Below are positions 868 to 12,703 of a DNA stretch of 34,254 nt, piece by piece. Source of the stretch: Spirochaetota bacterium (GTDB taxonomy: Bacteria; Spirochaetota; Spirochaetia; B11-G9); contig JAJRQE010000213.1 in NCBI GenBank assembly GCA_024280415.1, positions 1 to 34,254 on the forward strand. Direction: 5' to 3'. The notes beneath the pieces were generated by a model, which was not told where the DNA came from, did no database searches, and worked only from the letters and a program-made list of their open reading frames with translations. A program made the translations under genes and the position numbers. Positions within the stretch are counted from its first letter, which is position 1. Every line of letters begins with the position of its first letter.

Positions 868-1869
868 ATGAAGATAAACTGGGGAATTATAGGAGATGCA
901 AGAATTGCAAGAAATTTTGTTATACCCGGAATGCAGGCCGGTAAGTACAGTAAAATTGTTGCAATAGCTTCCAGAAACATTTTAAAAGCAGAAAAAACAG
1001 CAGATAATATGGGAATTGAAAAGGCCTATGGCTCCTATGAAGATCTTCTGGCAGATAAATCTATAGATGCAGTCTACATCCCCCTGCCGAATCATCTTCA
1101 TGTGGAATGGAGCATAAAGGCTATGGAAGCAGGAAAACATGTACTCTGCGAGAAGCCATTTGCACTATCCATAGATGATGTTGAAAAAGCAATTAAGGTC
1201 AGGGACAGAACCGGCAAAAAAATATCGGAAGCCTTTATGGTCAGATCCAACCTCCAGTGGTTAAAGGCAAAGGAACTGATTAAAAAAGATGAGTTCGGGA
1301 AACTACGAGCTGTCCAGGGCTTTTTCAGCTATAACAACACCGATCCGGATAATATAAGAAACTCAGCAGAGATGGGAGGTGGAGGAATATGGGATATTGG
1401 CTGTTATCCTGTAAATACTTCCCGCTTTATATTTGATGAAGAACCACTCAGGGTCGTATCCAGTATCGAATATGATCCGGTTTTTAAAGTAGATCGTCTG
1501 GCTTCTGTCCTTATGGAATATCCCGGAGGCCAGGCACAGTTTATAAGCTCAACCCAGATTACTCCCTTTCAGAGAATGCTTTTTGTGGGAACAAAGGAAC
1601 ACCTGGAGGTGGAAATTCCCTTTAATGCTCCGGATAAAGTATCTGCAAGGATATTTATAAGTGATAATTTTACAAGAGCTGAGGAAAGAGAGCTTATTGA
1701 ACTTCCTGTCTGTAATCAGTATACCCTTCAGGGTGATGCTTTCTCCAAAGCTATAATTGAAAACACTGAGGTACCTGTCACCCTGGAAGATACTCTTAAA
1801 AATAGTGCTGTTTTATTGGCAATATTCAGATCCGCACAAACAGGCAGATGGGAGAATGTTTCTATATGA
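868..1869 (+). CDS. Gfo/Idh/MocA family NAD(P)-dependent oxidoreductase
   Basis: The frame is open from 826, but the ATG at 868 is the better start: GAGGAG lies just upstream and the protein then begins directly with the Rossmann strand. That gives 333 residues, usual for the family. The N-terminal dinucleotide motif reads Gly-Ile-Ile-Gly-Asp-Ala-Arg-Ile-Ala. The family's Glu-Lys-Pro catalytic motif appears as Cys-Glu-Lys-Pro-Phe, and a Gly-rich Trp-Asp-Ile-Gly-Cys-Tyr motif follows in the C-terminal domain. Members oxidise or reduce sugars, inositols or related polyols; the substrate here is unknown. The stop overlaps the marC start (ATGA), so the two genes are translationally coupled although functionally unrelated. 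Confidence 0.92.
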   Translation: MKINWGIIGDARIARNFVIPGMQAGKYSKIVAIASRNILKAEKTADNMGIEKAYGSYEDLLADKSIDAVYIPLPNHLHVEWSIKAMEAGKHVLCEKPFALSIDDVEKAIKVRDRTGKKISEAFMVRSNLQWLKAKELIKKDEFGKLRAVQGFFSYNNTDPDNIRNSAEMGGGGIWDIGCYPVNTSRFIFDEEPLRVVSSIEYDPVFKVDRLASVLMEYPGGQAQFISSTQITPFQRMLFVGTKEHLEVEIPFNAPDKVSARIFISDNFTRAEERELIELPVCNQYTLQGDAFSKAIIENTEVPVTLEDTLKNSAVLLAIFRSAQTGRWENVSI

Positions 1870-2462
1870 CATTTTACAGTGCTGCTATAATGCTCTTTCT
1901 TGTAATGGATCCATTCGGGAATATACCTGTTTTTCTATCTGTCCTGTCACATGTTGAGCCTGAAAAACGGATAAAAATAATTATCAGAGAGCTGCTTATA
2001 GCCCTTATCTTTCTTTTATTCTTCCTTTTCTTCGGTAAGTACATATTAACAGGTATGCATATTACAGAACCTGCTCTGGGAATTGCAGGGGGAACAATAC
2101 TGTTTCTTATTGCAATAAAAATGATTTTTCCAGGATCAAATTCATCCTTTGTAAATGAGGATGACAGGGAGAGCGACCCTCTGATAGTTCCTCTGGCAGT
2201 ACCCATGGTAGCAGGCCCCTCATCAATGGCTATGGTAATTCTTTTAAGTACCCAGTATCCCCATCAGCTTTTCAGCTGGCTGGGAGCACTGCTCACAGCC
2301 TGGTCTGTGGGTTTTATTATCCTGATTATGGCAGAAAAACTTAGTAAAATTGTCGGACGGAGGACACTGAAAGCCATTGAAAGACTAATGGGTATGATCC
2401 TTACAACAATGGCCGTTCAAATGCTTCTAACAGGAATAGAGACATTTATAGCATCGGTGTAA
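1866..2462 (+). CDS. MarC family integral membrane protein
   Basis: The ATG at 1866 overlaps the upstream TGA and has GGGAGA about 10 bases upstream; it is preferred over an ATG at 1848 that lacks a good ribosome site. The protein is about 198 residues, almost entirely hydrophobic, with about six membrane segments. It carries the family signature Met-Asp-Pro-Phe-Gly-Asn-Ile-Pro near the N-terminus and a second hydrophobic half with Pro-Leu-Ala-Val-Pro-Met-Val-Ala-Gly-Pro. MarC/SNARE-like proteins are inner-membrane proteins of uncertain function, and some have been proposed as amino-acid exporters. The last 13 codons are duplicated about 830 bases downstream (3251-3291). Confidence 0.92.
   Translation: MTFYSAAIMLFLVMDPFGNIPVFLSVLSHVEPEKRIKIIIRELLIALIFLLFFLFFGKYILTGMHITEPALGIAGGTILFLIAIKMIFPGSNSSFVNEDDRESDPLIVPLAVPMVAGPSSMAMVILLSTQYPHQLFSWLGALLTAWSVGFIILIMAEKLSKIVGRRTLKAIERLMGMILTTMAVQMLLTGIETFIASV
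2421..2461 (+). repeat. Direct repeat, copy A (3' end of marC)
   Basis: These 41 bases are the last codons of marC. They recur at 3251-3291 with three mismatches. Including the neighbouring stop codons (TAA here, TAG there), both copies encode nearly the same peptide tail: Leu to Phe and Val to Met are the only changes. The copies flank the BrnT/BrnA-type module. Confidence 0.9.
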
Positions 2463-2473
2463 CCGGTGTCTCG

Positions 2474-2487
2474 ATACATTAATGTAT
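2474..2487. repeat. 14-bp perfect palindrome after marC
   Basis: ATACATTAATGTAT is fully self-complementary. It lies in the 37-base gap between the convergent ends of marC and the BrnA-like antitoxin gene. It is AT-rich with no GC stem, so it would be a weak terminator at best. A protein-binding site is also possible. Confidence 0.5.
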
Positions 2488-2499
2488 ATAGATGACGGT

Positions 2500-2817
2500 T
2501 TACAACTCTATCTTTATTTCGTTTTTTACATACTTATGAATAATAGCTGCAAGTAAAGGCTGATAATCAATTCCAGACTGTCTTGCCTTTGCTTTCAGAC
2601 CAATAAGGTCATCTTTTGGCAGACGAAAGGTTATTTTACTGTCTTTTTTCTTCTTCGACCGGAGAGCAGCTTCTTTTAGCTTTAACAGAAGCCGATCTTC
2701 TTCAACAGGGGATAAACTGTTGCCAGGGATCCAGGCACTTTCTATTTCCTGTATTTCATTTTTTTCATCTTCATTAAAATACCGAATATTATATAAATCC
2801 TTAGTCCTGTTATCCAT
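2500..2817 (-). CDS. BrnA/CopG-like antitoxin
   Basis: A 105-residue charged protein. The C-terminal third holds the DNA-binding part: a short strand Lys-Ile-Thr-Phe-Arg-Leu-Pro, then two helices ending in Ile-His-Lys-Tyr-Val, as in BrnA-type ribbon-helix-helix antitoxins. The N-terminal half (acidic, with Trp-Ile-Pro-Gly) would be the toxin-binding part. Its start overlaps the end of the upstream toxin gene by 8 bases. That toxin-first order is the BrnT-BrnA arrangement and suggests one mRNA repressed by the complex. The 3' 100 bases of this gene are duplicated at 4010-4117. Confidence 0.82.
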   Translation of the reverse strand: MDNRTKDLYNIRYFNEDEKNEIQEIESAWIPGNSLSPVEEDRLLLKLKEAALRSKKKKDSKITFRLPKDDLIGLKAKARQSGIDYQPLLAAIIHKYVKNEIKIEL

Positions 2818-3076
2818 CAGACATCTCCTTCTTAATTTTTCTGCTGGGATAAATAGTTTTAAGAAAAAAACCTTCCTCTAATTCCACAGCCGGACATACC
2901 CACCAGTATTCATCATACTGAAATAAAATAATTATCTGACCAGAATATTTTTCCTGGTTTGGATGGGGCTCAATAATAACTGACCCATCAATTATCATCT
3001 CACAGACAATTTCAAAAGAGATATCCCTGGTTTTTAATAAATACTGATTTTTTTCTTCATTCCAATCAATGGTCAT
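2810..3076 (-). CDS. BrnT-like toxin
   Basis: An 88-residue protein that starts Thr-Ile-Asp-Trp-Asn-Glu-Glu-Lys-Asn, close to the N-terminal signature of BrnT-type RNase toxins. It goes on with Ile-Ser-Phe-Glu and a helix, then beta strands, and ends with Phe-Leu-Lys-Thr-Ile-Tyr-Pro-Ser-Arg-Lys. This C-terminal form is common in the BrnT relatives that pair with CopG-like antitoxins. The gene overlaps the antitoxin by 8 bases. The ribosome site is weak, which is common for toxins. RNase activity is inferred from the family only. Confidence 0.8.
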   Translation of the reverse strand: MTIDWNEEKNQYLLKTRDISFEIVCEMIIDGSVIIEPHPNQEKYSGQIIILFQYDEYWWVCPAVELEEGFFLKTIYPSRKIKKEMSDG

Positions 3077-3250
3077 CTATTTAACAGTACCACTTCAGAT
3101 GGCCATTGTCCATACATTTAGTAATCCAGCTCGGAAGCTGTTGTAAAAATTTACCGGGAGATATACCCATTAATAATTCCCGCTCTTAAACTAAACTATT
3201 AACTCTTTTTCCCCGAAATGAATTTTTGAAAAGAAATTAAATAAGGGAGA

Positions 3251-3291
3251 ATGTTTCTGACAGGAATAGAGACATTTATAGCATCGATGTA
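3251..3291 (+). repeat. Direct repeat, copy B (orphan marC tail)
   Basis: This copy matches 2421-2461 at 38 of 41 positions and keeps the marC reading frame through to a TAG stop. The DNA upstream of it (3077-3250) shows no other marC similarity, and I saw no gene there. The repeat therefore represents only the gene tail. It sits directly before the VapC stop codon side of the second toxin-antitoxin module. Confidence 0.88.
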
Positions 3292-3305
3292 GTGGAAATA
3301 ATTGT

Positions 3306-3680
3306 TTAAATCAACTGAAGACCAAAGTCAACAAAATGTTTAAAGTCAATAATATTTTCGGTTGCCAGACTGGCATTACTGATAATTGCAGCAGATGCTA
3401 TCATGGCATCCACACGCAAATGTCTCTTCCTTCCGGATTTATTGAACAAATGTGCCGCTTCTGCTGAATGATCCGATGTAAAGGGAATTACCCTTTCTTC
3501 GAGTAAAGAATGCACAACAATTATTCCTTCATCATCTACAGGACCGCAGAGGAATTCATACCAGGCTACTCCGGAGGTACAAAGGATCTCACCATTTTGT
3601 ATCCATTCAATAATACGGATTGCTTCTATTGTTTCTGGTATAAGAGATCTTATTAAGTAGTTTGTATCGAGAAGAATCAT
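3306..3680 (-). CDS. VapC-like PIN-domain toxin
   Basis: A 124-residue PIN-domain protein of normal length. The acidic residues that bind metal are present: Asp5 in Leu-Leu-Asp-Thr-Asn-Tyr-Leu, Glu42 after Ala-Trp-Tyr, and Asp91 in Arg-Val-Asp-Ala-Met-Ile-Ala. A C-terminal Ala-Thr-Glu-Asn plus Asp112-Phe replaces the usual Thr-X-Asn-X-X-Asp-Phe. VapC toxins are metal-dependent RNases acting on tRNA or rRNA; the target here is unknown. The gene starts 2 bases after the antitoxin stop codon, so the pair is translationally coupled. All key residues are present, so it is probably active. Confidence 0.9.
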   Translation of the reverse strand: MILLDTNYLIRSLIPETIEAIRIIEWIQNGEILCTSGVAWYEFLCGPVDDEGIIVVHSLLEERVIPFTSDHSAEAAHLFNKSGRKRHLRVDAMIASAAIISNASLATENIIDFKHFVDFGLQLI

Positions 3681-3682
3681 TA

Positions 3683-3937
3683 CTAACGACCCCAGTCAGA
3701 GCGGTTTTCAGCAACTTCATCAAGATATTCATTGACAGCATTAATCTTAAGATTGCTTCGTTTATGGTACTGCCTAAGGCTGTCAAGTTTATCTTCAGTT
3801 TCAGTTTTTATTTCACTTTCTGCCTGTTTAATAGCTTTCCGTACAACCTCAGCCTGGGAGACATGCCATATAGCCGCCAGTTTTCTTAACCTGAGAATAG
3901 TCGCTTCATCCAGTGCAAAGGTCGTTCGTTTATTCAT
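3683..3937 (-). CDS. VapB-like ribbon-helix-helix antitoxin
   Basis: The N-terminus from the ATG at 3937 reads Met-Asn-Lys-Arg-Thr-Thr-Phe-Ala-Leu-Asp, a typical CopG/Arc strand. It is followed by two helices with Val-Ser-Gln-Ala-Glu-Val-Val-Arg-Lys-Ala-Ile. The charged, acidic C-terminus would wrap VapC. In-frame ATGs at 3946 and 3964 are also possible; none of the three has a convincing ribosome site. The gene lies directly upstream of vapC. The complex normally represses its own promoter, so the regulatory site should lie in 3938-4009. Confidence 0.85.
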   Translation of the reverse strand: MNKRTTFALDEATILRLRKLAAIWHVSQAEVVRKAIKQAESEIKTETEDKLDSLRQYHKRSNLKINAVNEYLDEVAENRSDWGR

Positions 3938-4009
3938 TATCGCCATACCATAAGGATGTACCATAAGCTATCATCTGTCAAGTGTGAAAAGTCATATCAA
4001 CCTGGCAGT

Positions 4010-4117
4010 TTACAACTCTAATTTAATTTCATTTTTTACATACTTATGAATAATAACTGTAGGTAAGGGCTGATAATCAATTCCAGACTGTCTGTCCTTT
4101 GCTTTTGCAATGTCCAT
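4010..4117 (-). pseudogene. Duplicated 3' end of the BrnA-like antitoxin gene
   Basis: About 98 bases here match the 3' end of the antitoxin gene at 2500-2600, with roughly one mismatch in nine. The frame is kept: an ATG at 4117 opens a 35-codon frame whose last 30 or so residues nearly match the antitoxin C-terminus, including Ser-Gly-Ile-Asp-Tyr-Gln-Pro-Leu and Ile-His-Lys-Tyr-Val, and it stops at the same codon. The N-terminal two thirds and the toxin are missing. It may be dead, or it could make a mini-antitoxin consisting only of the second DNA-binding helix region. No clear ribosome site is visible. Confidence 0.85.
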
Positions 4118-4136
4118 GAATTAACCAGTTACTGAT

Positions 4137-4781
4137 TCAAATATTTTTATCTGTATGAAATTGTTCCATCTTATTCCTGACTTCAATTCTTTTTAGCCGG
4201 AAATGATTCTTTAAATCTGATTTACTTATTGTACATGGTTCATGAAAGTGAAAGTTGAGTTTGTTAAAAGGGAGTGGAATAGTATAATCATCCCACCGCT
4301 TTGTTAATTTGATTTTATATTTTATATCAGGTGTTATTAAAAGTAGTTTATAATTCAGAAGCATACCCATAAATAAGGGAAATTCCTTTGGTTCGTGATA
4401 TGGGCCAAGGGGACCATCAAGAGTAATTACTAAATTACCTCCGTCCCCTTCCTGTAATCTCTGTTTTATTCTATGAATATATTTTCCATCTTCAAAATTG
4501 TCCGGTATACGGATTGTGGTGTATCCATAATAATTGCACAGGGAAGTTATGTAATCGCCTCGTGGGTCTTTTGTGGTAAGAATGTACTGCTTTTTACCTT
4601 TGAGTAATGGGTACAAACAATAGCTGTCTCCATGCCAGAATGAAACTATATAATTCCCTTCCTTAGAATTACGATTTAAAAGAAGATCAAATGAACCGGA
4701 ATAGCTTATTTTGCTGGTTTTATACACAAAATTAATATAGCGGATATTTATCAGATTCAATAACTTACTAAAAATATTCAA
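4137..4781 (-). CDS. DUF374/LPLAT-like acyltransferase
   Basis: A 214-residue protein. Ser-Phe-Trp-His-Gly-Asp supplies the acyltransferase histidine (about residue 50), and Thr-Leu-Asp-Gly-Pro-Leu-Gly-Pro matches the Asp-Gly-Pro-X-Gly-Pro signature of the DUF374 branch of lysophospholipid acyltransferases. The family is thought to attach acyl chains to lipid A-like or glycerolipid acceptors at the inner membrane; the acceptor is unknown. The start is taken as TTG at 4781, because no ATG exists before the His motif and a GGATA element lies 13 bases upstream. It is minus-strand, downstream of a broken phosphoesterase gene and back-to-back with the glycolipid genes. Confidence 0.8.
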   Translation of the reverse strand: MNIFSKLLNLINIRYINFVYKTSKISYSGSFDLLLNRNSKEGNYIVSFWHGDSYCLYPLLKGKKQYILTTKDPRGDYITSLCNYYGYTTIRIPDNFEDGKYIHRIKQRLQEGDGGNLVITLDGPLGPYHEPKEFPLFMGMLLNYKLLLITPDIKYKIKLTKRWDDYTIPLPFNKLNFHFHEPCTISKSDLKNHFRLKRIEVRNKMEQFHTDKNI

Positions 4782-5043
4782 TTAATTTTATATCCTTTTT
4801 ACCTGATTTTCTTTTTCTTAGCCCAAAAATGTTTTGATACCGGACTATTCCTCTGTCTGCAATATCATGATTTCCTGGTATAGAAATCATCGGGTTCTTA
4901 AATAGTTTAAGTAGTTTTGAAACTCCATTTTAAATTTCATTCTTTTCAAAATCGCTGAATAAAAGGTTATAGCTCTTTATGAGTGATAAAAGTGCGATAA
5001 CAGTTATTATAATAACAATCAGTCTGTTGCTTTTAAAATTCAT
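4768..5043 (-). pseudogene. Metallophosphoesterase remnant
   Basis: From an ATG at 5043 the frame encodes a membrane anchor (Arg-Leu-Ile-Val-Ile then a hydrophobic run), then a TAA stop after about 36 codons. The same frame continues with Lys-Asn-Pro-Met-Ile-Ser-Ile-Pro-Gly-Asn-His-Asp-Ile-Ala-Asp. That is the Gly-Asn-His-Asp metal-binding motif of calcineurin-like phosphoesterases and its downstream Phe-Gly. The region that would carry the first metal motifs (DxH and GDxxD) is missing, as is everything after about residue 85, so an internal deletion and a nonsense change are both evident. The layout (anchor, then phosphoesterase) mirrors the N-terminus of the large gene at 6172. It fills most of the 4782-5138 gap. 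Confidence 0.7.
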
Positions 5044-5082
5044 AATTTCGTAATTCCAGATACTTATAATCTATAGTATAAT

Positions 5083-5112
5083 TTGAACTTATGGAATATA
5101 ATTCTATATACT
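5083..5112 (+). promoter_or_regulatory. Candidate sigma-70 promoter for the glycolipid genes
   Basis: TTGAAC at 5083-5088 and TATACT at 5107-5112 are separated by 18 bases. Transcription would start near 5119, giving a short leader before the AAGGA ribosome site at 5128-5132. The region is very AT-rich, so other -10-like hexamers occur and this choice is tentative. Confidence 0.42.
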
Positions 5113-5138
5113 ACAAATAACAATTTTAAGGAATATGT

Positions 5139-6182
5139 TTGTTCAGAAGAGTTAAACTAAAAAGAGAATACTTAATGTATGTAATTGGCAGTCTGGTATT
5201 TATGAGTCTCGCTGTAATTACATTATTTTTGATATTTAAAGGGTTTAAGGGATCCGAAGGATTGGTCATTCCAGGTTTATTTACCCTGGCAAGCGGAATA
5301 AAGCTGGTGATTCTGCTCCTTCTTTTCTATACTTTTGACGGCCTCAGGCTCCTCTGTGTATTTAAAACATTCGGTACTGATGTTTCCTTTCTCCTGATGA
5401 TTAAACTAATTTTTATAAATGTATTTGCATCCGGCGTTACCCCTCTGGCAACAGGTGGTGGATTTGCACAGATCTATTTCCTTAATAAGAATAAAGTCCC
5501 TGTGGGAACGGCAACTGCTGCAACGACAATACGGACTGTTATTGCCTCAATTATTATCTTTGCTTCTGTACCTGTGATACTTACCCTGGAAAAGGGGCTT
5601 AAGGCTGTAATTCCAATACAGCATGGAATAATTTATTCACTCCTGCTGATTTTAATGTACGCCTTACTCTTCTATGGACTTATAAAACAAAAAAACCTGT
5701 TAAAGAAGGTGGTATATTCAATCCTGCGATTATTACGAAGAGTGCATCTGTTAAAATCTGAGAAATATGAAAAGGTAAAAGCTTCTGTTGATAAAGAAAT
5801 ATCCCACTTTGCAGAGAGTCTGTTACGTTTTTGGTACGGCCGCAAAATATACTTTTTCCTTTCAATACTTAGTTCTGTTGTGTATCTTTTCCTCCTCTTC
5901 GTTTTTCCCTTCTTTTTATTACGACTAATGAAGGTTAAGGTTCATATTCTTACGGTAATTTCGATTCAGGTTCTTATAACCTTTCTCATTTACTTTACAC
6001 CAACCCCCGGGGGTAGTGGTGTGGCAGAAGGGGGCTTCGCTTTAATTTTTGCCCATTTCGTCACGTCTGCCTATATCGCTCCCCTTACATTTTACTGGCG
6101 TTTTTTCACTATGTATCTTGGAATGATTATTGGATTTATTGTATTTTACCGGGAAGTATGGAAAAAAGATAATGGCGTATAA
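5139..6182 (+). CDS. AglD/MprF-type integral membrane protein (lysylphosphatidylglycerol synthase TM family)
   Basis: A 347-residue protein with about eight membrane segments. It has the family landmarks: Ser-Gly-Val-Thr-Pro-Leu-Ala-Thr-Gly-Gly-Gly-Phe in the first half and Pro-Thr-Pro-Gly-Gly-Ser-Gly-Val-Ala-Glu-Gly-Gly in the second. The family (UPF0104; the MprF flippase domain) is linked to transfer or flipping of modified lipids. It lacks the soluble aminoacyl-transferase domain of MprF, so it is not a full LPG synthase. The start is TTG at 5139, 6 bases after AAGGA; the nearby ATG at 5135 is out of frame, and an in-frame ATG at 5175 is the alternative. The stop overlaps the next gene by 11 bases. 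Confidence 0.87.
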   Translation: MFRRVKLKREYLMYVIGSLVFMSLAVITLFLIFKGFKGSEGLVIPGLFTLASGIKLVILLLLFYTFDGLRLLCVFKTFGTDVSFLLMIKLIFINVFASGVTPLATGGGFAQIYFLNKNKVPVGTATAATTIRTVIASIIIFASVPVILTLEKGLKAVIPIQHGIIYSLLLILMYALLFYGLIKQKNLLKKVVYSILRLLRRVHLLKSEKYEKVKASVDKEISHFAESLLRFWYGRKIYFFLSILSSVVYLFLLFVFPFFLLRLMKVKVHILTVISIQVLITFLIYFTPTPGGSGVAEGGFALIFAHFVTSAYIAPLTFYWRFFTMYLGMIIGFIVFYREVWKKDNGV

Positions 6183-8409
6183 AATAAAAAGAAGAATTAT
6201 AATTGCCTTTTTTATTATTCTGTATATTATCTTTTTGGGTTTGAAAATTAATATTACCCTTAGTAATTCTGAGTTTATTGATTACAATGCCAGGAATGCA
6301 GCCAGAATTGAGAATATACTCAATTTAAAGAATGACTATTCATTTATTGTTGTGGGTAATGCACGGAATTCCATTGGTGTTTTTGAAAAAAAATTGCTTC
6401 CCCTTATTAATAGTTCAGATGCTGATTTTGTTGTGTTCCTTGGTGATATGCTGTTGGATGGCGCAAATGATAAATATGGTGCATTAAACAGAACCCTCCG
6501 CAAGATCACTAAACCTGTTTTGTTTACGATTGGTGATACAGAGATATCTGATGGTGGAATTAAAAATTATTTCAGACACATAGGATCGCCAAGAATATTT
6601 TTTATTTCAGGGAAATCTGAATTTATCTTTCTTGACACGACAGGTTATACAGAAGAAGAATATCAGATAAACTGGTTGAAGGATCTGCTTGACAATATTC
6701 AGAATGTGTCCAGACGATTTGTTTTTATGAACCGACCTCCTCTAACAGAAACAAATAGGGAATCTGTCTCAGAGAATAAGTATCGGATGAGTACAGCTTT
6801 CAGAAGCACTCTTCTTAAAATTTTTGAAAAAAGCAATGTCTCGGCAGTTGTATCATCCAATAACGGCAGCTTTAACCAAATCACCAGGAATGGAGTGCTT
6901 TATGTAAGTAGTGGTGGTGGTGGTGGTGGAACACTTACTCATCAGAACAGAGAAAGTTTTTTCCACCTCACAATAATAGATGTTACAGATTCAGAAATTA
7001 CTGTGTCTGTGCTTAAGCCTGAAACGGGTGATCTATCTGGGAATATGAACCTTTTTGATTATTTGTGGAACAAAATATTTTCCTGGGTCTATGTATATTT
7101 TCTCAATGTTATTTTGATAATATCACTCCTGTTCTTTGCTGTGTATCTTATCTATACACAATTAATTGAAAAAATTGATTACTATCCTGAATTTAATGAA
7201 TCATTAAAGAAAGATTATCCCTTAACAATAGCAATGTTCACAAATAATTATCTTCCATTCATAGGAGGAGTTCCCCTTTCGATTGCCCGTCTCAAGCAAG
7301 GACTGGAGGCAAAGGGACATACAGTGTATATTTTTGCTCCCCGGTATGGTTCTGGTAACGAGATGAAACCAGAAAAAGGAATTATCCGTTGTTCGCCTCT
7401 GTTCCACTATAAAAAAGGGGAATTAATTGTTCCTGTTTCAAATATTTTTTCTTCAAAAATAAGAAGCGAGTTTAAGAAAATAAATCCTGATATTATTCAT
7501 GTACATCACCCTTACTGGCTGGGGAGGGTTGGAAAAAAACTGGCAGCTGAATATAAAAAACCTGTTGTCTTTACCTATCACACACGTCTTGAGCAGTATA
7601 ATCATTATGTACCCGTTTTTCATCGTCTTGCCGGTGGACAGGTGCCTCACATACTCATTAAGTTTTTTGCCGGAGCATGTGATGCTGTGGTTGCACCAAC
7701 AAAGTCAGCTAAACGATATCTAAGGAATTTAGGTATTGGAAAGTTGATTATTGTTCAGCCTACCGGTATTGATATGAACCTATATATATCCGATAAACCC
7801 AATATATTAAAAACGAAAGATATTGATGATGATAAACTTATTCTGTTCAGTGTTTTTCGACTTTCCAAGGAAAAGAACCCGTACTTCCTTCTGGATGGAA
7901 TTAAAAAACTTAGCAGGCTTAGTTCGGTACCATTTAAGTGTTTTATAGCAGGTACAGGACCTGAAGAAGATACAATCCTTGAGTACATCAAAGATAATAA
8001 CATGGAGGAATATGTGGTTATGCTGGGAAAGGTGTCTCCAGAAAAAATTCCCGAGTACTATGCCGGAACTGATATATTTATCTTTTCTTCCCAGTCAGAA
8101 ACTCAGGGGATGGTAATACTGGAAGCTATGGCAGGGAGAACTCCTGTTGTCGCTGTGGATTCAAGTGGAATTTCGGATATAGTTAAAAATGGAATAAATG
8201 GATATAAGACCCCGGCAAATCTGGATGAATGGATTCAAAAAATAAAGTATCTCCTGGAAAATAAAGCAAAACGTTCTGAATTAGGCGATCAGGCTCTTGA
8301 AACAGCAGGTGAAAACTCAATTGCAGGTATGAGTAAAAACATTCAGGATATGTATTACGAAATAATTGATTGGAAGAAAAAACACCCCCATCAAATTTTT
8401 ATTCGTTGA
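6172..8409 (+). CDS. Degenerate metallophosphoesterase fused to a GT4 glycosyltransferase
   Basis: A 745-residue protein starting at the ATG at 6172 (GGAAAAAAG upstream). Layout: membrane anchor (about 8-26), calcineurin-like phosphoesterase fold (about 55-290), second membrane helix (about 305-331), then a full GT-B glycosyltransferase (about 350-745). The phosphoesterase part keeps Gly91-Asp92 but has lost other metal ligands: the DxH site reads Gly-Asn-Ala-Arg (62-65) and the GNHD site reads Gly-Asp-Thr-Glu (121-124). It is probably catalytically dead. The GT4 part keeps a Gly-Gly-Val-Pro donor loop, Thr-Tyr-His-Thr-Arg, and the EX7E pair Glu643/Glu651. It resembles diacylglycerol glucosyltransferases. 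Two helices would place the phosphoesterase fold outside the membrane and the transferase in the cytoplasm. Confidence 0.85.
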   Translation: MAYKIKRRIIIAFFIILYIIFLGLKINITLSNSEFIDYNARNAARIENILNLKNDYSFIVVGNARNSIGVFEKKLLPLINSSDADFVVFLGDMLLDGANDKYGALNRTLRKITKPVLFTIGDTEISDGGIKNYFRHIGSPRIFFISGKSEFIFLDTTGYTEEEYQINWLKDLLDNIQNVSRRFVFMNRPPLTETNRESVSENKYRMSTAFRSTLLKIFEKSNVSAVVSSNNGSFNQITRNGVLYVSSGGGGGGTLTHQNRESFFHLTIIDVTDSEITVSVLKPETGDLSGNMNLFDYLWNKIFSWVYVYFLNVILIISLLFFAVYLIYTQLIEKIDYYPEFNESLKKDYPLTIAMFTNNYLPFIGGVPLSIARLKQGLEAKGHTVYIFAPRYGSGNEMKPEKGIIRCSPLFHYKKGELIVPVSNIFSSKIRSEFKKINPDIIHVHHPYWLGRVGKKLAAEYKKPVVFTYHTRLEQYNHYVPVFHRLAGGQVPHILIKFFAGACDAVVAPTKSAKRYLRNLGIGKLIIVQPTGIDMNLYISDKPNILKTKDIDDDKLILFSVFRLSKEKNPYFLLDGIKKLSRLSSVPFKCFIAGTGPEEDTILEYIKDNNMEEYVVMLGKVSPEKIPEYYAGTDIFIFSSQSETQGMVILEAMAGRTPVVAVDSSGISDIVKNGINGYKTPANLDEWIQKIKYLLENKAKRSELGDQALETAGENSIAGMSKNIQDMYYEIIDWKKKHPHQIFIR
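6913..6930 (+). repeat. In-frame GGT repeat encoding six glycines
   Basis: Five GGT codons and one GGA follow two AGT codons inside the phosphoesterase-like domain (residues 248-253). Slippage here would change the glycine number but not the frame, so it could alter the protein without switching it off. Confidence 0.85.
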
Positions 8410-8423
8410 TTTCTATCCTCCTG

Positions 8424-8789
8424 CTATTCAACCTCGGACACTGTCAGTGTATTGCCATCCGGATCCTGAAATTTAAACATTCTCATCCCCTGCTCTGCAA
8501 ATTCCCGTATTTCACCAATTATTTTTACATTCTGCGATTCCAGAAATTTCCTGAACTCATCCAGATTCTCAATCCCAAGGGTGAGAAAATTATTTTTTGG
8601 CGACTCTTCCCCTCCTGCCCATTTATTAAGGGCAAAGAAGGTATTAGGTGCTCCCGGAACAGACAGTTCAGCCCAGCCGTCAGACTCAAAAACAATCTTG
8701 CATCCCAGAATATCAGAATAAAAATCGAGCGAAGATTTTGTATCTTTTACCCATAAAAAGGATATTATATTTTTATAAACCGGCTTCAT
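8424..8789 (-). CDS. VOC (glyoxalase/bleomycin-resistance-like) protein
   Basis: A 121-residue protein with the paired beta-alpha-beta-beta-beta modules of the vicinal oxygen chelate fold. It has Phe-Leu-Trp-Val-Lys-Asp-Thr near the start, Phe-Tyr-Ser-Asp-Ile-Leu-Gly in the first helix and Phe-Gln-Asp-Pro-Asp-Gly-Asn at the C-terminus. The activity (lyase, dioxygenase or antibiotic binding) cannot be read. The ATG overlaps the 3' end of the StnC-like gene by 17 bases and uses a GGAG inside that gene, so it is the last gene of the redox operon and translationally coupled. It converges with the glycosyltransferase gene, 14 bases away. Confidence 0.85.
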   Translation of the reverse strand: MKPVYKNIISFLWVKDTKSSLDFYSDILGCKIVFESDGWAELSVPGAPNTFFALNKWAGGEESPKNNFLTLGIENLDEFRKFLESQNVKIIGEIREFAEQGMRMFKFQDPDGNTLTVSEVE

Positions 8790-10846: not shown

Positions 10847-12703
10847 TTATACTACCTCTATTGCATCAAAATTACATGCTTCAATACAGAGTCCGCATCG
10901 GGTACATGTTTCAGGGTCTATTACATGGATCTTTTTTCTCATCCCTTCAATTGCACTGACAGGACAAACCCTTGCACATAAAGTACAGCCGGTACAATTA
11001 TCAGGTATAACCTGAATGGTAATTAACGACTTACAAACACCAGCAGGACACTCACGGTTCTTTATATGCGCTTCATACTCCTCACGAAAATATTTTATGG
11101 TTGTCAGAACAGGATTAGGTGCAAGCTGCCCAAGACCACAAAGTGAAGTTTTGGTTATATGCCCTGCAAGCTCTTCAAGTTTGTCCAGATCCTCCAGCTT
11201 ACCATTACCCTCTGTAATTCTGATCAAAATCTCCAGCATACGTTTCGTACCTATACGGCAGAATGTACATTTACCACAGCTTTCATTCTGAGTAAATGAC
11301 AGGAAGTACCTTGCAACATCAACCATACAGGTAGAGTCATCCATAACAACCATACCGCCGGAACCCATAATTGCACCGGTTTCATTGATTGAATCGTAGT
11401 CAATTGGGGTATCAAACAATCGTTCGGGTATACACCCGCCTGCAGGACCTCCCATCTGAACAGCTTTTACAGGTCGCCCGGAAGAGGTTCCACCACCAAT
11501 ATCAGTAACAATTTCTCTAATAGACAGACCCATAGGGACTTCTATTAAACCACCACGTTTTATTTTACCAGCTAAGGCAAATACTTTTGTGCCATAACTG
11601 TTTTTAAAAGCATATTTATTAAATGCGTCTGCACCGTTTAAAATAATAAAGGGTACATTCCCGTAAGTTTCCACATTATTAATATTGGTAGGAGATTTAT
11701 TTATACCGGAATTTGCAGGAAAAGGAGGCCTTAACCTGGGCATCCCCCGCTTCCCTTCAATAGAGGCCATAAGGGCAGTCTCTTCACCACAGACAAAAGC
11801 ACCTGCACCCTCTTTTACATGAAGATGAAAAGAAAAATCAGTTCCTAATATATTATCACCAATATAATTTTTCTCTTCTCCGGCAGCTATTGCAATATTA
11901 AGTCTTTTAATAGCCAGAGGATATTCTGCTCTGCAGTAAATAATCCCTTCCTTTGCACCTGTTGCATATGCTCCTATAAGCATCCCCTCAATTACCTTAT
12001 GAGGATCTCCCTCTAAAATTGATCTGTCCATAAATGCACCGGGATCACCTTCATCTGCATTACAGACTAAATATTTATAATCTCCCTTACGACTAAGAAC
12101 GGGATCCCGACACTCTGTGTCGCCCGTTTTATCTCCCTTACGACTAAGAACGGGATCCCGACACTCTGTGTCGCCCGTTTTATCTCCCTTAGCGCCTGCA
12201 AGAAAAGACCATTTAAGACCTGTAAGAAACCCTGCTCCTCCCCGCCCCTTAAGACCCGATGCTTTTACAATAGAAACCACCTCTTCTGGTTTATATTCCT
12301 CTATACATTTTGTTAAAGCTTTATATCCATCTGCTTCCAGATATTCATCTATACACTCTGGATTAATAATTCCACAATTTTGCAGAACAATCTTTACCTG
12401 CCTGTCCAGATATTTTTTTCCATCCTCAGACAGCGCAATCATATTCTTTTCAGGGAAAGTCCCTGTTTTTACTGATTCAAGTAATTCATCAGCAAATTTC
12501 TTATCCACATAGCCATATCTGCGGCGCTCACCGTTATGCTCGATCTCTACTATGGGTTCCGCATAACACATTCCAACACAGGAGGTAACTTCCAGATCCA
12601 ATCCACCGCTTTTAAGATCAGGTGCCATGTAATCATAGATATCCTGAGCCCCGGCAGCTATTCCACAGGAACCAAGGCCGACAAATACTCTAGTGTTTTC
12701 CAT
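10847..12703 (-). CDS. StnB/NuoF/HydB-like NADH-binding flavoprotein
   Basis: A 618-residue NuoF-type subunit. It has an N-terminal thioredoxin-like [2Fe-2S] domain (Cys13, Cys42, Cys46), then the FMN loop Gly-Arg-Gly-Gly-Ala-Gly-Phe (153-159) and the NADH-site motif Asn-Ala-Asp-Glu-Gly-Asp-Pro-Gly (215-222). An SLBB region follows, then the Cys-Gly-Lys-Cys-X2-Cys cluster and two C-terminal [4Fe-4S] ferredoxin motifs. NADH oxidation at FMN, possibly with electron bifurcation, is the family role. Between the FMN loop and the Asn-Ala-Asp-Glu motif, two identical 17-residue segments (173-189 and 190-206) are inserted; they are encoded by a palindromic DNA repeat and have no counterpart in the family as I know it. 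The start overlaps the StnA-like gene by 14 bases. Confidence 0.9.
   Translation of the reverse strand: MENTRVFVGLGSCGIAAGAQDIYDYMAPDLKSGGLDLEVTSCVGMCYAEPIVEIEHNGERRRYGYVDKKFADELLESVKTGTFPEKNMIALSEDGKKYLDRQVKIVLQNCGIINPECIDEYLEADGYKALTKCIEEYKPEEVVSIVKASGLKGRGGAGFLTGLKWSFLAGAKGDKTGDTECRDPVLSRKGDKTGDTECRDPVLSRKGDYKYLVCNADEGDPGAFMDRSILEGDPHKVIEGMLIGAYATGAKEGIIYCRAEYPLAIKRLNIAIAAGEEKNYIGDNILGTDFSFHLHVKEGAGAFVCGEETALMASIEGKRGMPRLRPPFPANSGINKSPTNINNVETYGNVPFIILNGADAFNKYAFKNSYGTKVFALAGKIKRGGLIEVPMGLSIREIVTDIGGGTSSGRPVKAVQMGGPAGGCIPERLFDTPIDYDSINETGAIMGSGGMVVMDDSTCMVDVARYFLSFTQNESCGKCTFCRIGTKRMLEILIRITEGNGKLEDLDKLEELAGHITKTSLCGLGQLAPNPVLTTIKYFREEYEAHIKNRECPAGVCKSLITIQVIPDNCTGCTLCARVCPVSAIEGMRKKIHVIDPETCTRCGLCIEACNFDAIEVV
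12081..12182 (-). repeat. Tandem 51-bp palindromic element inside the stnB-like gene
   Basis: Two identical 51-bp units occupy 12081-12131 and 12132-12182. On the + strand each begins with TCTCCCTTA, and a third copy of these 9 bases follows at 12183-12191, so each 42-bp core is flanked by a 9-bp direct repeat like a target-site duplication. The core forms a two-step hairpin: outer arms AACGGG/CCCGTT and inner arms CGACAC/GTGTCG with a 3-base loop. The unit length is a multiple of three, so the reading frame continues and adds 17 residues per copy. A diverged relative is at 31565-31605. Confidence 0.92.

Follow-up and report, generated by a model that had tools for sequence, protein, structure and literature searches.

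The gap between marC and a convergent glyoxalase (VOC) gene in this uncultured spirochaete is an insertion hotspot, and the stretch of 34,254 nt that we analysed (the window) carries the left junction of the islet in this gap twice. In copy A, the marC tail faces the tail of a CopG/BrnA-like antitoxin gene across a short spacer, and in copy B remnants of the same two tails are separated by a complete vapBC cassette. The best explanation, which we regard as moderately probable, is a hotspot islet followed by tandem duplication of about 1850–3244, replacement of a spacer by vapBC, and decay of the copy. The features on which this reading is based are:

1848–2462, + strand: intact marC, encoding a MarC/YhgN-type membrane protein (PF01914, 183 bits)
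1850–1863, + strand: GGGAGAATGTTTCT, end of the oxidoreductase gene and start of marC, putative origin of the left end of copy B (exact 14-mer shared with 3245–3258)
2420–2461, + strand: marC tail, copy A (direct repeat)
2463–2499, no strand: palindromic spacer of copy A, 37 nt; its right arm and the brnA end match the VOC end and palindrome of relative G001
2463–8423, no strand: islet in the marC–VOC gap, which relatives G003, G005, and G006 lack
2493–2595, − strand: antitoxin (brnA-like) tail, copy A (direct repeat)
2500–2817, − strand: intact CopG/BrnA-like antitoxin gene (PF12441, 23 bits, below the cut-off of 28; homologues in relatives)
2810–3076, − strand: BrnT-like toxin gene (PF04365, 17.7 bits, below the cut-off of 34.5; 14 of 20 family members match)
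3245–3258, + strand: remnant of the marC start region in copy B; it overlaps with the remnant of the tail in AATGTTTCT (exact 14-mer)
3250–3291, + strand: marC tail, copy B, a pseudogene remnant (direct repeat)
3306–3680, − strand: vapC, PIN-domain toxin (PF01850, 38.5 bits, curated cut-off 23.6; acidic residues invariant)
3683–3964, − strand: vapB-like ribbon-helix-helix antitoxin gene (PF01402, RHH_1, 17.9 bits, just under the cut-off of 20.5)
3306–3981, no strand: extent of the vapBC cassette, from DNA homology (78%) to G003, contig C346
4003–4105, − strand: antitoxin tail, copy B, a truncated remnant (direct repeat)
8424–8789, − strand: glyoxalase (VOC) gene, in which the final Leu codon seen in relatives is absent (comparison with relatives)

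The original prediction that the order marC tail to BrnA-like tail occurs twice was confirmed by two direct repeats, one of 42 nt in marC (93% identity) and one of 103 nt in the antitoxin gene (88%, gap-free). In a BLAST search of the 3.91-Mb, 338-contig assembly both tails are confined to this locus, where the second copies have E values of 1.7e-31 and 7.2e-11, which excludes chance as their origin. The spacing of 37 bases stated for copy A also holds, as the stop codons of marC (2460–2462) and brnA (2500–2502) lie tail to tail with 37 nt between them, and the tails of copy B are indeed split by vapC and vapB. The two copies have diverged by 7%–12% and share no exact stretch of 30 nt or more. 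In the brnA tail, 12 of 103 nt differ, affecting five codons nonsynonymously and four synonymously. Two marC sites can be polarised with relatives, and at both it is copy B that has the derived base, giving two amino acid changes (L to F and V to M). Together with the brnA differences, these derived changes favour the decay of a redundant copy, albeit on small numbers. A partial second marC-like frame, covering query residues 85–202 at 47% identity, was also seen 1 kb after the full marC of another spirochaete, G039 (L024, 1501–1842; C1:1800699–1801040), possibly an independent marC duplication.

Copy B extends further to the left than the original prediction recognised. The sequence GGGAGAATGTTTCT at 3245–3258 is identical to 1850–1863, at the junction of the upstream oxidoreductase gene with the start of marC (the true marC start is probably 1866, because relatives start at the equivalent position), with the caveat that this match is just 14 nt long and that nine of these positions are tail-like anyway. 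No other 14-mer starting in 3077–3249 has a second occurrence in the window, and across the full 34 kb, with simple repeats set aside, the unrelated 14-mers that recur number only about four. GGGAG appeared at the copy B position by chance in 0.075% of trials with shuffled upstream sequence (0.00075). The marC start region and the marC tail contain the near-identical 9-mers AATGTTTCT and AATGCTTCT, respectively, and a full second marC minus the 565 nt between them reproduces the sequence of copy B. The simplest reading would be a tandem duplication of about 1850–3244 and a subsequent deletion. Two further proposals were considered and dismissed: that 3077–3249 is left over from marC or the islet (p about 0.3), and that 4106–4200 continues the copy into the region upstream of brnTA (p 0.17).

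Variability of the marC–VOC gap is also found among the relatives. A comparison of the region downstream of marC had been proposed along with the original prediction, and the empty sites that it expected are present in two relatives of the same genus (G003 and G005) and in one of the same family (G006), where the convergent VOC gene follows marC after about 20, 34, and 14 nt, respectively. G001, of the same genus, has an Unstab_antitox/ParE module between the same neighbours (L034, 1266–1759), and G004 has other genes downstream of marC. As the gap is empty in three relatives, holds a different toxin–antitoxin (TA) module in G001, and spans 5,961 nt in the window, it is an insertion hotspot. 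Beyond the TA genes, the whole of 2463–8423 is additional relative to these genomes, which the original prediction did not recognise. A gene cluster located elsewhere in G006, with an LPG-synthase-like membrane protein and a metallophosphoesterase–glycosyltransferase, is similar to the right part of the islet. Species of the same genus differ by 21%–30% in this region, and no intermediate strain, with the duplication lacking vapBC or with a full-length second marC, was found among the relatives compared. Within the islet, 4768–5043 is a divergent metallophosphoesterase gene remnant, internally deleted and truncated, which is intact beside the same neighbour genes in G006 (contig C86); its decay is of the same kind as that of copy B.

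The spacer of copy A (fold z −2.4) and its flanks indicate where the islet may have entered. The VOC gene of G001 ends in GAATTATAAACCGTCATCTCGATACATT and the brnA gene of the window in GAGTTGTAAACCGTCATCTATATACATT, and none of 2000 shuffles aligned as well. Furthermore, the VOC gene of the window ends in GAA TAG, without the final Leu codon of its relatives. Based on these two observations, the islet was apparently inserted inside the last VOC codons, leaving the old VOC end on brnA. Copy B retains this brnA end and a few bases past it, suggesting that it derives from the locus after islet insertion or from a sister allele of the same history.

Palindromes are found in several other contexts. 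The marC–VOC gap of G005 (L037, 8801–8834) is itself a palindrome with the core GCGAACGGCCGTTCGCC, which recurs at three other loci in G005 and at four in the window's genome. The copy A palindrome was rejected as a dispersed repeat of the window's genome, as its arm pattern had no match, and so was the palindrome core of G001, which was found at its own locus only. At 651–790 lies an intergenic repeat, about 133 nt long and made up of palindromes, which is dispersed in the genome with about 11 near-full-length copies and about 30 partial matches. Palindromic elements that insert in frame into protein-coding genes are known, and a 51-nt palindromic unit at 12080–12191 resembles these: it is present in 2.2 exact tandem copies, in frame in a nuoF/hoxF-like gene to which it adds DKTGDTECRDPVLSRKG twice, and contig C63 has a diverged copy within an intergenic repeat. 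A speculative and rather doubtful extension would be that palindromic spacers (REP- or terminator-like) between convergent genes are exchanged for TA cassettes in short-homology events beside stop codons, with the palindrome guiding the insertion. If this were true, copies A and B would be a snapshot of the process, with an unreplaced and a replaced spacer adjacent in one genome.

Judged from sequence features, both TA modules would be expected to act as ordinary type II pairs. The vapBC cassette shows no notable difference from its family (a PIN ribonuclease with an RHH antitoxin), with the conserved acidic active-site residues D5, E42, D91, and D112 unchanged across five homologues. A candidate antitoxin gene, the vapB-like gene with an RHH_1 score just under its cut-off, lies directly upstream of vapC and ends 2 nt before it; solved VapC chains match the protein distantly only, and single-sequence searches of the PDB gave no matches. 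VapC was found neither in viral contigs nor in plasmids. The closest vapBC among the relatives searched is that of G003 on contig C346 (vapC 78% identical), which lies between unrelated genes. DNA similarity between the two is restricted to 3306–3981, beginning 14 nt past the marC stop of copy B and ending about 28 nt short of its brnA stop; as the homology ends near both stops, vapBC is a discrete unit, and it occupies the position that the palindromic spacer has in copy A. The second module should be a BrnT-like ribonuclease with a CopG-type antitoxin. As in the BrnTA type II family, the toxin gene (3076–2810) precedes and overlaps, here by 8 nt, the gene of a CopG-type antitoxin (2817–2500), and the toxin has weak BrnT_toxin similarity, with 14 of 20 toxin homologues matching PF04365 at E ≤ 0.01 (best 4e-06). 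In contrast, the window proteins score under the curated Pfam cut-offs and belong to a divergent branch that is widespread in these spirochaetes. We name the toxin no more than BrnT-like, because it reaches 17.7 bits against a curated cut-off of 34.5. A search for the toxin in viral contigs gave nothing beyond one 16-residue match, and PADLOC reported nothing relevant.

The history that we favour would comprise four steps. An islet with the BrnTA-like module at its left end would have entered the last VOC codons, with the palindromic spacer and the Leu-stop staying on brnA. A tandem duplication of about 1850–3244, with its left end in the start region of marC and its right end a little upstream of brnT, would then have followed, and the vapBC cassette would have taken the place of the second copy's palindromic spacer, although these two events could have occurred in either order. 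Finally, the redundant copy would have decayed, with marC losing 565 nt between the near-identical 9-mers and brnA keeping its last 103 nt only. Illegitimate or short-homology recombination would most likely have driven these changes. Against this history, no recognisable continuation of the copy is found to the right of 4105 (p 0.17). The description of the locus as a nested duplication fits the vapBC insertion alone; flank deletions as well as insertion shaped copy B, and on the larger scale the event is an islet of 5.96 kb in an insertion hotspot. The original prediction offered either a duplication followed by VapBC insertion or the arrival of VapBC with its flanks from a related strain. 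Its interpretation as a whole is largely supported, and the duplicated junction with VapBC in its gap is well supported by the discrete cassette and the marC-start edge; of the two origins of copy B, local tandem duplication is more probable than import from a sister strain.

Import is a possible alternative, to which we give limited credence. Copy B would be a sister-strain allele that already had vapBC in place of the spacer and was transferred and joined beside the resident locus by illegitimate recombination, with its marC and brnA flanks trimmed. This would explain the presence of vapBC and the copy in one step, and the A–B divergence of 7%–12% fits a strain or sister-species distance, given the 21%–30% between species of the genus. 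However, with a homologous donor the normal outcome would be replacement of the junction, not a second one beside it, the polarisable marC changes of copy B are derived, as in a decaying copy, and a search for the donor genome found none.

An assembly artefact, in which metagenome assembly would have fused variants of the locus from two strains, is improbable, although the genome is in 338 contigs, the nearest named relatives are MAGs, and interleaved repeats (A-B-A'-B') are awkward for short-read assembly. The exact A/B stretches, all below 30 nt, are short for typical reads, and joining two strains would not yield an internally deleted marC. Moreover, the joints at 3244/3245 and 4105/4106 lie outside long shared sequence, which makes a chimera unlikely. 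Integrase elements leave their insert flanked by a directly repeated gene 3' end, and the 42-nt marC tails could be read as attachment repeats of a small element integrated site-specifically into the marC 3' end. We consider this very improbable, since the brnA tail is repeated as well, the marC start is also present in copy B, and the 42-nt marC repeat is absent from G001 and from the empty sites. In agreement with the original prediction, neither an integrase nor a transposase was found among the window ORFs read or scanned.

With an unfilled junction (A), a filled junction (B), three relatives with empty sites, and a fourth with another TA module, the locus allows a base-by-base comparison that limits the possible mechanisms. 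Being a single locus of a single draft genome, it serves as a useful example and is no surprise. A literature search for TA modules together with illegitimate recombination or tandem duplication found nothing on point. In enterobacteria, TA insertion loci are plastic, with mazEF or parDE between relA and mazG and with ccd or REP sequences in the folA–apaH gap, and the mechanism by which chromosomal TA modules integrate and move has been called unresolved (PMC7167474). The marC–VOC gap is similar in that the same neighbours enclose nothing, one TA family, another, or a REP-type palindrome, with no mobile-element gene, and the recurrent palindrome in the gap of G005 parallels the enterobacterial REP case. 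It differs in its spirochaete host, its convergent neighbours, the combination of two TA modules and lipid genes in one site, and the tandem junction copy. In E. coli, plastic intergenic sites of TA insertion are known at relA–mazG and folA–apaH; the present locus is a spirochaete case of this kind, of modest novelty and with unusually readable junctions.
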